From positions 1 to 53,991 of the IMG/VR virus record IMGVR_UViG_3300011189_000013: a DNA stretch of 53,991 nucleotides, one strand, 5' to 3'. Below the pieces are notes generated by a model. The model had not been told where the DNA came from. It did not search any database and saw only the letters and a program-made list of their open reading frames with translations. Positions within the stretch are counted from its first letter, which is position 1. Every line of letters begins with the position of its first letter. The stretch is from a virus. Both the position numbers and the translations under genes were made by a program. Of the stretch, positions 7,212 through 12,097 are shown piece after piece.

Positions 7212-8189
7212 TTAGATGCCATACATATTTTTGATATCTTCGGCAGCCTCTTCCAACAGCCTCTTAGACGTCGCCTTAGCAAACTCAGAAGCCATTGTAC
7301 GCATGTTCAAATATGACTCAAACTTGTCCATAAGATCCCCACCACGGTCCCGTGACGAAACCTCAACAGGCAAATCGTGCATTCGAGCGATGTGCTCGAA
7401 ATTCTCACGAGTTTCGTGCCCACCTACATACTGCATAAGATTGGACAGGGCTTCCTCGTCACCTAATGCTCTTACAACCTCTTCCCACTTGCGCCACGCA
7501 GAAGCGGTTCGTGGGCTCGCTTGCACTGAGGACTCTTTTACAAGAGTTATGCCTCTTTCAAGTAGCTGCTTTACTTTTGCGCCGGGCAAGGGTCCCAAAG
7601 CATCACTTTCCATAACTCCCATTCCTGTGGGAGCTTTAATGGCTTTGTACCCTCTATCACGAAGGCGATTCCAACGCGGCCCTAGTACTCCGGCAGCGAT
7701 ATCATCGGGATTACCCGGATCGTATGCAATCTTATCCAAAATCTCTTTTAGATGTGGCTGGAGGTGGGGCTGCTTAGCACCAAGGCGAATTAGCTGTTGC
7801 TTAATGTTTGACATAGACCTTTTCCTTTGCTGTTGACGTTTTTTGATCTCTTCCAGTGTAAGCTTTGGCTTACTGGGGCTTTTAGGACTTCGCGGAACTC
7901 TTCTACCACCTTGCAACTCACCTTGCAACTCAGCTTTCATATCTACGTATAAAGACCGCAAGAGGTCCTTTTGCGATTGCCGTAGACTGGTATCATTCCA
8001 GTACACCTGATTGAGTATCTCTAGTGCCCGGTCTGCCGAAGCTCTTGGGATTTCCCCCCCGCCTTTGGCATTCCTCAAAAAAGTATCCAGTGTCCTATTA
8101 GAAATAAACTGGAGAACCTTAGTGAGGCGGCGGGTGCATTTGGGGGAAACCGTCACAAAACGGCCACCTCTGGAAATTCTTAAAAGCAT
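7212..8189 (-). CDS. Tag B protein with a 125-residue N-terminal extension or a second, internal start
   Basis: The open frame codes for 325 residues. Tag B, normally at the very N-terminus, begins here at residue 126 (MSNIKQQLIRLGAKQP, then LQPHLKEILDKI). That methionine (ATG at 7814) has its own SD, AAAGGAAAAGG, so a 200-residue product from 7212-7814 is likely made. The first 125 residues are basic, ending in a Lys/Arg/Gln-rich linker, and may be a separate module fused in frame. The frame opens one base after the actin-like gene's TGA (TGATATG), which suggests coupling to it. The C-terminal part is helical with no family I recognise. Confidence 0.6.
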   Translation of the reverse strand: MLLRISRGGRFVTVSPKCTRRLTKVLQFISNRTLDTFLRNAKGGGEIPRASADRALEILNQVYWNDTSLRQSQKDLLRSLYVDMKAELQGELQGGRRVPRSPKSPSKPKLTLEEIKKRQQQRKRSMSNIKQQLIRLGAKQPHLQPHLKEILDKIAYDPGNPDDIAAGVLGPRWNRLRDRGYKAIKAPTGMGVMESDALGPLPGAKVKQLLERGITLVKESSVQASPRTASAWRKWEEVVRALGDEEALSNLMQYVGGHETRENFEHIARMHDLPVEVSSRDRGGDLMDKFESYLNMRTMASEFAKATSKRLLEEAAEDIKNMYGI

Positions 8190-8190
8190 A

Positions 8191-9390
8191 TCACTCGTAT
8201 TCAGCTAGAGACTGAACCAAAAGACCTTGAGCTACTGAAGTCATAGGATCTTCGGCTTGTCTGATTTCACTGATCTCAATTGGGAATCTCTTTCGCTGCC
8301 GCTCAAAAACCTCTTTGAAAAGGTCTAAGAATCCACCGGCTAAAGAGGTCCCTCCTGATACGATAATCGGAATCGCCTCTTGCAGCTCGGTATCACTCTG
8401 CGTCTGTTTGAACTTCTTGGAAATATTATCAAGAGCGTATTTGATTAGGCTTTTGTAATAAACGACGAGCGCCTCTTCATCTCGCGTCTTAGGGGCCATC
8501 AAATCAATGCCACGCTCTTTTACGGCACATAGACGTGAGGCAGTAGAGCCTACGGCTTTAGATGCGTGAGCATCAATCCAGTCGCCTCCACGCTGCACAC
8601 TAAACTCCAAAATAGGCATCGTCATGTAAGAGAGGGCTACGTTAGTCATCCCCGACCCAAAGGAGACTCCGATCCCACTAAAAGATTCGGCGGCGCACTC
8701 ACTATAGATAATAGCCATAGCTTCATTGCCGGAAATAGGGTCGTACCCCAACTCCTCTAGGATCTGACCGAAAACCGCTTCGTGATACACAACATCTTGA
8801 TCTGGATTATCAAGAGGTACAGCGGGGATGGAATAGTAGCAAATCTCACCCTCTTCTTGGGGTTTGCCTACCACCTGTTCAATGAGAATCGACAAGACTT
8901 CCAGAGCGTCAATCTCCGAAGATGAGATCAAGCCTTTAGAGAGAGGACGGCGCACTTCTTTTTTGAGCAACTGTGCAAGCTCCAATGCGGTGTCTCCGAG
9001 AATTAGTAGCTGATCCTCGTACTCCACGTAGGACGTGCCACGGAGATTCAACATCTTTTTCCGCTCTGCGTCTACATCCAGAAAAGCATCTCGCACTCTT
9101 TTGGTTTCAATCGATCCGCCTACTTTTCGTGCAGATACCAGATTCATCGTACCTACATCCAAACCTACACCCAACTGCGCCCGGTCTTCACTCATAACTT
9201 TACTCCCGTCTTCTGTACTATCAGAACTAATTAAACCACTATCAGACCCATTTTTGAGTCCGTATTCTTTCACCCGCTTTGAGATGGTAGTAGGGCTGCA
9301 TTCGTACTGCTCCGCAAGTTCTGTGTAGGTGGCCCCCGCTCGAAGGGCTTTTTCAAGCGCCTCTTTCGGTATGTTCACTCGTCGGACCAC
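8191..9390 (-). CDS. Actin/MreB-like ATPase with N-terminal helix-turn-helix
   Basis: A 399-residue protein. Residues 6-45 form an HTH of the homeodomain/transposase type (YTELAEQYECSPTTISKRVK). After a Ser-rich linker comes an actin/Hsp70-superfamily ATPase: phosphate-1 GLDVGTMN (76-83), a SIPAVP strand near 187, NEAMAIIYSE near 222, phosphate-2 VSFGSGMTN (242-250), and the adenosine loop IIVSGGTSLAGG (342-353). The length fits ParM, Alp and MreB. Filament-forming ParM proteins normally use a separate DNA-binding partner, ParR; here DNA binding appears fused to the motor. The start is GTG with AGG upstream. It lies among late genes after a candidate late promoter. Its cargo could be phage DNA; this is an inference. 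Confidence 0.8.
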   Translation of the reverse strand: MVRRVNIPKEALEKALRAGATYTELAEQYECSPTTISKRVKEYGLKNGSDSGLISSDSTEDGSKVMSEDRAQLGVGLDVGTMNLVSARKVGGSIETKRVRDAFLDVDAERKKMLNLRGTSYVEYEDQLLILGDTALELAQLLKKEVRRPLSKGLISSSEIDALEVLSILIEQVVGKPQEEGEICYYSIPAVPLDNPDQDVVYHEAVFGQILEELGYDPISGNEAMAIIYSECAAESFSGIGVSFGSGMTNVALSYMTMPILEFSVQRGGDWIDAHASKAVGSTASRLCAVKERGIDLMAPKTRDEEALVVYYKSLIKYALDNISKKFKQTQSDTELQEAIPIIVSGGTSLAGGFLDLFKEVFERQRKRFPIEISEIRQAEDPMTSVAQGLLVQSLAEYE

Positions 9391-9462
9391 AAACTGACCT
9401 ATTACGTATACAGAACCTAGTAATCCCGGTTACCTACCAAGATTAAACTCACACCCCCTGAA

Positions 9463-9474
9463 TATAAAAGGATT
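9463..9474 (-). promoter_or_regulatory. Candidate late promoter motif (AATCCTTTTATA)
   Basis: The minus strand reads GAGAATCCTTTTATATTC, matching the recurring late motif. It lies in the 108-base gap between the CCA-adding enzyme gene and the actin-like gene, about 75 bases before the latter's GTG. The rest of the gap holds nothing else that I recognise. Confidence 0.45.
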
Positions 9475-9498
9475 CTCGACTGCGCTGTAAAAGACCGT

Positions 9499-10647
9499 TC
9501 AGGCTTTGAGCATGTCTCGCACGGCTTCTGTGAGGGAAGCCGCATTCAAGCGTAATGTGGGCTCTTCTAAAAGCAAATCACGGGCAATCACCATTATTTT
9601 TCGGATCTCAGGCCCCTGAAACCCAAACTCGTCGATCAGTTCTTTCGTGTCTAACAACCGGCCCGGCTGTTTCAAGAGGTCTACGAAAACAGAAGATTCT
9701 TTATCTCCCAACTCGACGGAAACCGCACGGAGACGAGTCATCTGCATCTTATCTAGAAAACGTATGCGCCGGTTTAGAGGGAGGCCGTAATCCATCATAT
9801 CGAATAGAAAGAGAATACGAGAATCTCTCGCAGACCAATTCACCATCGTCTGTCGGAAAGCCTTGTCCTCTTCCAACATTTCCGACAGCACTGCGAGAAG
9901 TCCTAATTCCTTTAGGACTTTGAGTGTAGTTTTAGACTGACTCATATTCAGGATGTCGTCTACCAGAATAGTAGCGATAGCATTCTGGGGCGCATTTTTG
10001 AGTTTACCTGCATTTCGCACAATTGACTCCGCTACGATAGGATCAATATGGAATCCATATTTGACCATAAATTTCACGGATCGTAGCATCCTTGTCGGGT
10101 CGTCAGAAAAAGTTTTATCAGGGTCTGAGGGGCAGCGCATAACACCCTCTTGGAGGTCAGATAGGCCACACCCTGTAAGATCTATAATCTTCGCTTTATC
10201 CGGCCCCTGTGCAAGCTGTGATAGCTGCCACATGAGCGTATTAAAAGTAAACTCCCTACGCTTTATGTCCTGCGCTATAGGAGCGATCTCAACTTCGTGT
10301 GGTTTGTATCCCTTCCCCCCTTCCCCCCCGTAAGACTCTTCCCGGCCATTTGCAATTTCAATAACCTCACCCTGTAACTCTTGCCCATCTACCTCCCACG
10401 ACTCGTGGATAGTGAAAATAGCAACACCGTACTGGTTCGTTTGAAGTGCGGTATGTACTGGAATTGTGGACGCCAACTCTTCTGCAAACCAAGCTGAGTC
10501 CCTACCTTCTCCCAGTGTTGCCGCATCTATTACGATATCAATATCTTTGATGGGCTGGTCGATCACAAAATTACGCACAGCTCCCCCAACCACGTAAACG
10601 TGGTCCCCTACATCCAGTTGGGCTGCAACCCCCGATAGGAAACGCAT
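9499..10647 (-). CDS. CCA tRNA nucleotidyltransferase-like protein
   Basis: Adds or repairs the 3' CCA of tRNAs, by family. Counting from the ATG at 10647, motif A is VYVVGGAVRN with DIDIVID (18-41), motif B is RREFTFNTLMW and motif C is DDPTRMLRSVKFMVKYGF. A helical C-terminal half of about 150 residues follows. These are the hallmarks of class II CCA-adding/poly(A) polymerase enzymes; 382 aa is a normal length. The ATG overlaps the previous stop codon (TAATG), so translation is probably coupled; an in-frame TTG at 10683 is an alternative. No tRNA gene lies in the window. It could serve host or phage tRNAs during infection. Confidence 0.85.
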   Translation of the reverse strand: MRFLSGVAAQLDVGDHVYVVGGAVRNFVIDQPIKDIDIVIDAATLGEGRDSAWFAEELASTIPVHTALQTNQYGVAIFTIHESWEVDGQELQGEVIEIANGREESYGGEGGKGYKPHEVEIAPIAQDIKRREFTFNTLMWQLSQLAQGPDKAKIIDLTGCGLSDLQEGVMRCPSDPDKTFSDDPTRMLRSVKFMVKYGFHIDPIVAESIVRNAGKLKNAPQNAIATILVDDILNMSQSKTTLKVLKELGLLAVLSEMLEEDKAFRQTMVNWSARDSRILFLFDMMDYGLPLNRRIRFLDKMQMTRLRAVSVELGDKESSVFVDLLKQPGRLLDTKELIDEFGFQGPEIRKIMVIARDLLLEEPTLRLNAASLTEAVRDMLKA

Positions 10648-10934
10648 TAGGGCAATAGATTTTTTGTGGGCTTGGTTGGACAATATACACGCTCGGAAGC
10701 TAGACGAGTTTTTTCTCGATAGTAAAAAGCACCATCATGATAGGTCAATTCACCCATATTTACAAGTGTCTCAATAACATCCCCCATCAGTTCCGAATCC
10801 CCTGCCATAGCATCTACCAACTCATCAAACTGGTCCAGTGCTACATCCATATGGGACGCATCCACTTTTCGACTCCCGTAACCAATGAGTCCTCGTATAT
10901 ACTGTGCAGCTACTCTTTTAGCTAGATTATTCAT
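10647..10934 (-). CDS. Small Tag A protein, winged-helix-like
   Basis: A 95-residue protein. The first 18 residues (NLAKRVAAQYIRGLIG) are Tag A, the KRVAxxY motif that recurs in many late proteins here. The remainder is an acidic helical stretch followed by MGELTYHDGAFYYRE, which could be the wing of a winged helix; a similar segment (IEKGSVFWWDDY) is found in the protein at 17067-17861. SD GGGGAAAG precedes the ATG. It overlaps the upstream gene by 8 bases and the CCA enzyme gene by one. Function unknown. Confidence 0.55.
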   Translation of the reverse strand: MNNLAKRVAAQYIRGLIGYGSRKVDASHMDVALDQFDELVDAMAGDSELMGDVIETLVNMGELTYHDGAFYYREKTRLASERVYCPTKPTKNLLP

Positions 10935-11589
10935 CTTTCCCCTTACGCAATGACTTCAACGCCGAGGTAGCATCACTAAGCTGATTGCTTGCCTCTTTGG
11001 ACTCAGACTGCACTTCACTCCCACCAGAAGCTTTCGCTTTCCCTGAGCGGATCTTAGACGGCACAAAAGTAGGGACATCCTCATCTATATCCTCATAACT
11101 TTCAGTAGGTTTCTGTCCCCCGGAAGATGCTACACCACCCGAAGATATAACCTGTACCGGTCGATCCATATACTCTGTCAGCTTCTCTAACAGGAGATCC
11201 TGACTTTTCAGAAGTTTGTTCGTGGTAGCTACAAGATCCTTATTCATATTACGCAAATCTTCATTCTCACGTAAAGATTGCTCTAGCATTTCAGTAGTAG
11301 CACTAGCATCTTCTGTAACAGGCGCAGATTTAGACTTTGCTATCTGTCGGGGGGCTTTGCTCGTACTTTGGATAGCACGACTTTTAGGAGAGGTCGTAGC
11401 CTTCTCCTGCAAAGTTATAACCCTTTTTTTAAGAACACACCTTTGCTGAATCGCACTGGAAAGATCCCGACTCCAACTCGCTTTTTCATAGTCGAGTTTC
11501 ACCTCTTGGTCGTAAGGTACATTCTCATCTAAGTCAGAGATGTAATGCTTGGGGTAAACTCTCCCTTCAATGATTAGATATTTTTTCAC
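10927..11589 (-). CDS. Coiled-coil protein with low-complexity linkers
   Basis: A 220-residue protein starting at GTG with AAAGG upstream. Residues 1-45 form a small folded-looking region (KYLIIEGRVYPKHY). A helical, coiled-coil-prone centre follows around 95-145 (EMLEQSLRENEDLRNMNK), flanked by Ser/Lys/Ala-rich linkers, and the C-terminus is charged. No known family. It follows the tail-completion-like gene by only a base and overlaps the next gene by 8 bases, so it belongs to the same late operon. It may be a structural spacer or adaptor. Confidence 0.5.
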   Translation of the reverse strand: MKKYLIIEGRVYPKHYISDLDENVPYDQEVKLDYEKASWSRDLSSAIQQRCVLKKRVITLQEKATTSPKSRAIQSTSKAPRQIAKSKSAPVTEDASATTEMLEQSLRENEDLRNMNKDLVATTNKLLKSQDLLLEKLTEYMDRPVQVISSGGVASSGGQKPTESYEDIDEDVPTFVPSKIRSGKAKASGGSEVQSESKEASNQLSDATSALKSLRKGKDE

Positions 11590-11590
11590 G

Positions 11591-12097
11591 TTACAAGCCT
11601 TTTATTCTATTTGTTAAACGTTGTTTGATATCATCTGATATCTTCTTTTTGATGATTTTTCTGGCCTGATCAACGCCTCTATCCAGAAAATTCTTGCCCC
11701 GTATGCCGGGATGTACCCATTTACCCTCTTGCATACTTTTAGGGCTGGCATTACGGAAGATCACTTCCCCATTATCTTTTATAATAGGAATAGGGCGGCT
11801 GGCCTTAGTCAAGTGAGTCATCTGGTATCTTCTAACACCTTTATCTAAATACTTAGCCGCCGGGTGATCTGACTCAATAACAAGAGTACTCTCCCCTTCA
11901 ATTCGATAACTGAAACTCTCTAGAAGGCGATCTGCACTTCCTTTGAAAGTGAGACGCCGGATCTCAGCCTTAATAGCATTTATAGCCTCTTCGCCCGTCT
12001 CTTCTAACAAAGAAGTACGGTCCGGTGTGTCGTCTAGGGGAGTACCCTTTGTTAGGGGCTTTCCATAAACACCCCTCAATCGGTATTTTCCAGCCAT
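11591..12097 (-). CDS. Head-tail joining / tail completion protein (HK97 gp10-like)
   Basis: A 168-residue basic protein. The centre and C-terminus show the layout of the HK97 gp10 / minor tail completion family: FSYRIEGESTLVIESDHPAAKYLDKGVRRY, here split as SFSYRIEGESTLVIES and HPAAKYLDKGVRRYQM, then WVHPGIRGKNFLDRGVDQA near 125-145. Family members bind the head-proximal end of the tail or the neck. SD AAGG precedes the ATG. Its neighbours (virion proteins on the right, coiled-coil protein on the left) agree with a neck role. The family call is by pattern, without an alignment. Confidence 0.6.
   Translation of the reverse strand: MAGKYRLRGVYGKPLTKGTPLDDTPDRTSLLEETGEEAINAIKAEIRRLTFKGSADRLLESFSYRIEGESTLVIESDHPAAKYLDKGVRRYQMTHLTKASRPIPIIKDNGEVIFRNASPKSMQEGKWVHPGIRGKNFLDRGVDQARKIIKKKISDDIKQRLTNRIKGL

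Follow-up and report, generated by a model that had tools for sequence, protein, structure and literature searches.

The window analysed here is a 53,991-bp IMG/VR virus record. It encodes on its minus strand a 399-residue protein, read from a GTG start, within a block of predicted neck and tail genes (Table 1). This protein had been predicted from the letters alone to be a single-chain fusion of a helix-turn-helix (HTH) domain with an actin-like ATPase, and the fusion was recovered as one open reading frame occupying exactly positions 8191-9390. Residues 75-392 match the Pfam family Volactin (PF25216) with E=2e-77 and 261 bits for a cut-off of 35, over positions 3-319 of a profile of 321. In the full-length AlphaFold model, obtained from an alignment of 38 phage homologues (mean pLDDT 87), a three-helix HTH is followed by a disordered linker and by an actin fold. 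The HTH helices (residues 9-17, 22-28 and 33-42) have a pLDDT of about 84-95, and the third is basic (TISKRVKEYGL). Taken as a single sequence, the HTH gives sub-threshold profile matches to Pfam HTH_28 (E=0.0025) and to PHROG_664, a DNA-binding protein (E=2e-4). The top Foldseek matches of the model are the MreB, MamK and BeeR filaments (E about 1e-12), with DnaK ranked lower, and a profile search of PDB sequences with the actin found FtsA and MamK. An Hsp70-like or ROK-like enzyme, the alternative named in the original prediction, is ruled out by the Pfam profile and by these best PDB matches, which are filament actins. The comparison with ROK-family repressors (NagC/Mlc) deserves mention: they also join an HTH to an ASKHA-fold domain, but ROK domains are sugar-kinase-like and non-polymerising, whereas the best matches of phage volactin are filament formers.

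Table 1. Features of the HTH-volactin gene and of the surrounding neck-tail block in the window.
Feature	Position	Strand	Basis or remark
Tail sheath, 1411 aa	167..4402	-	phrog_2839, E=1.5e-33
cl1, neck/connector-like, 597 aa	4942..6735	-	structure and synteny
HTH-volactin gene, 399 aa	8191..9390	-	GTG start
Actin-fold ATPase (Volactin) domain, residues 74-398	8197..9171	-	profile, model, Foldseek
Adenosine motif IIVSGGTSLAGG	8332..8367	-	conserved in homologue alignment
Phosphate-2 motif VSFGSGMTN	8641..8667	-	canonical Asp replaced by Ser243
Glu223 in NEAMAI	8722..8724	-	invariant; presumed catalytic-Glu place of MreB/MamK (MamK alignment)
Phosphate-1 motif GLDVGTMN	9142..9165	-	D78, G80 and T81 invariant in 38 sequences
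Flexible linker, residues about 47-73 (51-68 disordered)	9172..9252	-	length varies among lineages
Internal ATG (Met66)	9193..9195	-	candidate start of short, bare-actin isoform
GGGAG, Shine-Dalgarno-like	9203..9207	-	7 nt before internal ATG
HTH domain, residues about 7-46	9253..9372	-	AlphaFold; homologous in L002, L005, L071, L168
cl5	10927..11589	-	synteny
cl6, tail completion/Neck1-like	11591..12097	-	weak phrog_5 match, E=0.0037; synteny
cl3, 443 aa	13813..15144	-	independent anchor for fetching loci

The three nucleotide-binding motifs of the actin/MreB superfamily that had been recognized in the protein did not fare equally. The phosphate-1 and adenosine motifs are conserved in the 38 phage sequences. 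VSFGSGMTN departs from the usual pattern: where MreB and MamK have the phosphate-2 Asp, Ser243 stands in 38/38 of them, and the position is also Ser in the PVC homologues with a readable motif. Judging from the alignment, this substitution could result in an altered or weak ATPase. Glu223 aligns with the residue which we take to be the catalytic Glu of MreB and MamK.

The distribution of the actin in related genomes was analysed. In viral loci fetched with the actin, the genes are arranged on the same strand in the order cl3, cl6, cl5, optionally cl10/cl7, actin, cl1, cl4 and tail sheath, so that the actin is flanked by neck/connector genes and precedes the tail sheath, in agreement with the late-gene (virion) setting first proposed. 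The family model of cl1 matches the neck of phage 812 (Foldseek, E=4e-8) as well as other necks, and in the great majority of viral loci cl1 follows volactin at a short distance on the downstream side. cl4 is zinc-ribbon-like, as judged from its cysteines, and a profile search of cl3 and cl6 against solved structures gave no meaningful matches. A tRNA nucleotidyltransferase of the CCA-adding type (9499-10683) lies inside the block, adjoining the actin, in the window and also in close relatives. When loci were fetched by cl3 and not by the actin, an actin was present downstream in 75 of 80; in the remaining five, none lies within the stretch covered, which for one or more of them, L165 included, is cut short by a contig edge. 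Conservation among the recurrent cassette genes is highest for the actin, with a median pairwise identity of 57% versus 47% for cl3, 44% for cl1, 39% for cl4, 35% for cl6 and 31% for cl5. Nearly all members of a large group of uncultured and often huge phages carry it, on contigs of up to more than 500 kb. One actin gene per record is found in 13 of 14 phage records searched; two of these 13 give a double match from an intein-split gene. The non-phage homologues are about 37-46% identical and belong mainly to Planctomycetota and Omnitrophota; three sequences from genome bins (L082-L084) reach 55-59% identity and cluster with the phage sequences. The HTH is missing from nearly all same-position phage relatives of the actin, and none of the PVC or other bacterial and archaeal loci examined showed an HTH fusion. 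In the literature searched, no earlier description of a phage volactin or of an HTH-actin fusion was found; in the jumbo-phage papers examined, tubulin (PhuZ) spindles are described and no actin like volactin is named.

Among related phages, the HTH is fused to the actin in five lineages: the window with L001; L002/L003; L069/L071/L073; L005; and L168, which was found through the neighbour gene cl3. This recurrence, together with the confident three-helix model, supports the predicted N-terminal HTH. Searching for further fused members with the HTH pattern only gave no new actin fusion. In a tree rooted on cellular homologues, the five fused lineages and the unfused L004 and L160 form one clade (96/93), so that a single gain followed by two losses, the HTH being lost or moved, is the simplest history. 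L160 is the sister of the window (best segment 82% identical) and its actin carries no HTH. The HTH and linker, with a Shine-Dalgarno (SD)-like motif and an ATG, now precede a different small protein (L160:4502-4975), resembling positions 10647-10934 of the window, and a homing endonuclease lies between this relocated HTH gene and the actin. The same HTH arrangement is present in L165/L166, and in L004 a homing endonuclease is likewise located at the HTH/actin junction. A group I intron was considered as the cause of the separation of HTH and actin in L160, and was rejected, Rfam giving no match around the homing endonuclease. Over the HTH, the window and L002 are identical at 61, 74 and 41% of first, second and third codon positions, with dN 0.46 and dS 1.69. 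This codon-position bias indicates that the HTH codons are under purifying selection and do not result from a mis-called start. Combined with the recurrence in five lineages it rules out a start-calling or frameshift artefact, and the HTH-actin fusion is confirmed as real.

To this architecture is added a putative internal start. In alignments, the unfused relatives begin at about the position of Met66, and an SD-like motif followed by an ATG is found between the HTH and the downstream domain in all six HTH-bearing genes (6/6). The motif before the internal ATG varies (GGAG, GAGG or AGGA), and the residues encoded across it differ: GSKV, GSK, RSDD, GSTD, GSS and RRSD. An SD-like motif precedes 61 of 607 internal ATGs (10%) in related loci, a background with which the 6/6 is compared for six genes related by descent and not as a test on independent trials. 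The long start is without such a motif in the window, L002, L071 and L005, the four lineages examined. That the motif and the ATG are kept despite the differing residues, with none at the long start, suggests that two products, HTH-actin and bare actin, may come from each of these genes. The HTH does lie within the same chain, but if bare actin is also made, the description as a single-protein system may be wrong even in the window. No separate adaptor gene of the ParMRC/AlpAC type lies beside the actin, the separate HTH gene of L160 being joined to another small protein.

The origin of the HTH was then considered. In an HTH-profile search of 27 phage records, the non-actin matches, where identified, were mostly homing endonucleases of EDxHD/Vsr-like, LAGLIDADG and GIY-YIG types, the EDxHD/Vsr assignment being read from a DFWHANPE-type motif and not from a profile search. 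Several homing endonucleases are located directly upstream of the actin gene in related phages. On these comparisons the HTH may plausibly derive from a homing endonuclease; this falls short of proof, since HTHs of such type are common. One could go further and regard the HTH as what remains of a decayed homing endonuclease whose reading frame runs on into the actin; the short actin would then be the working product, and the long form would have no job. These nearest identified relatives and their position upstream of the actin fit this reading, as do a nuclease domain of a homing endonuclease joined in frame to volactin (L236:12007-13527), a decayed copy just upstream of another volactin (L175:12480-12734) and the long starts devoid of an SD-like motif. 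A jobless domain agrees poorly with purifying selection on its codons and with its retention in five lineages of one clade, and we consider this explanation unlikely. As a separate observation, a homing endonuclease of L004 (4894-5886) carries a second HTH like the actin-fused one, and an exchange of domains is possible.

The phage volactins were compared with known cytoskeletal systems. The closest solved structures are MamK and MreB, which are only about 16% identical, have organelle and cell-wall roles, and carry at phosphate-2 an Asp where phage volactin has Ser. PhuZ of nucleus-forming jumbo phages is also a cytoskeletal filament of large phages, but has a tubulin fold and an unrelated sequence. 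The Haloferax volcanii volactin VolA, of the same family by profile and a filament-type actin, forms dynamic filaments in vivo (PMC10869688) and is the only family member known to do so; it is an archaeal cell-shape protein with no HTH reported, whereas the phage members are in a virion gene block. In the Corynebacterium prophage CGP3, the actin AlpC is coupled to a second protein, the DNA-binding adaptor AlpA, and early induction of alpAC accompanies excision of the prophage (PMC4446434, PMC5539076). The likeness is a phage actin coupled to DNA binding, predicted in our case; phage volactin and its HTH differ in forming one chain, encoded among virion genes. With ParM/ParR plasmid partition, the concept of an actin filament plus a DNA-binding module is shared, but phage volactin is of a different Pfam family, no centromere array was found and there is no separate adaptor.

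These systems bear on the original proposal of a one-protein segregation or positioning filament, in which every subunit would bind DNA and would push or anchor genomes free of any adaptor. The two modules are indeed in one chain, and there is a precedent in AlpC, a phage actin that moves viral DNA by way of its DNA-binding adaptor AlpA (PMC4446434). However, the HTH is absent at the same spot in nearly all relatives and lost from the actin of the sister L160, so the conserved role of the actin does not need it; bare actin is predicted as well; and no centromere-like repeat array was detected within 7800-10800 or by TRF, although distant or degenerate sites may remain. Single-chain DNA segregation is possible, is not favoured, and appears to us improbable. 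Equally improbable is a neck/tail assembly ATPase or chaperone forming no filament, with the HTH as a protein-docking module: the constant location of the actin gene in the neck and sheath block and the Hsp70 folds, which also match the model and constitute most named viral matches in BFVD, speak for it, but Hsp70s match less well than filament actins, a family member polymerises in vivo, and the HTH, with its basic third helix, resembles DNA-binding HTHs. Such docking would follow RodZ, whose HTH binds the actin MreB itself, a case that also weighs against the DNA binding predicted for the HTH of phage volactin.

We lean, at somewhat less than an even chance, towards a filament-type phage actin with a part in virion assembly or in the spatial organisation of late infection, whose long isoform would tether the filament to DNA. 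An actin of the volactin/MreB-MamK branch would be made with the virion genes, and would most likely position assembling heads, necks or tails, or DNA for packaging. In the clade of the window, a homing-endonuclease-like HTH would have been joined in front of the actin gene, sparing the ribosome-binding site and start of the latter; as these were kept, two products are expected, a long HTH-linker-actin, less efficiently started, and a short form without HTH and linker. Filaments containing both forms would display DNA-binding HTHs on flexible tethers, which may either link the filament to phage genomes or let it bind its own operon, tasks for which AlpA and ParR are separate adaptors; no operator-like repeat was identified near the gene. 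A fuller version, which we advance as tentative and rather doubtful, is that of a segrosome-like or assembly cytoskeleton built from one gene: internal initiation would supply a bare-actin body and a minor HTH-actin bolting the filament to DNA, with an HTH domesticated from a homing endonuclease, within an undescribed class of near-universal head-tail-block actins of huge phages. The conserved actin is in any case a near-constant neck-tail gene, to which one branch has added a predicted DNA-binding domain. The question whether an actin cytoskeleton serves phages in virion assembly or DNA placement is thereby opened to testing, and the branch illustrates a possible exaptation of a homing-endonuclease-type domain into a cytoskeletal protein.

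Several minor observations concern the actin genes themselves. Some of the volactin-like actins of Planctomycetota and Omnitrophota (L086-L134) have long N-terminal extensions. Two volactin genes, each accompanied by neck genes, are carried by a single 297-kb contig (L016 and L028), which corresponds either to two head-tail blocks or to an assembly artefact. Finally, intein-like insertions are located at the conserved RGGDWID motif of the actin in L071 (6001-8274), L073 and L160 (5947-8112); the inserted sequence looks alike in L071 and L160 despite differing flanking actin, as expected of a mobile element.
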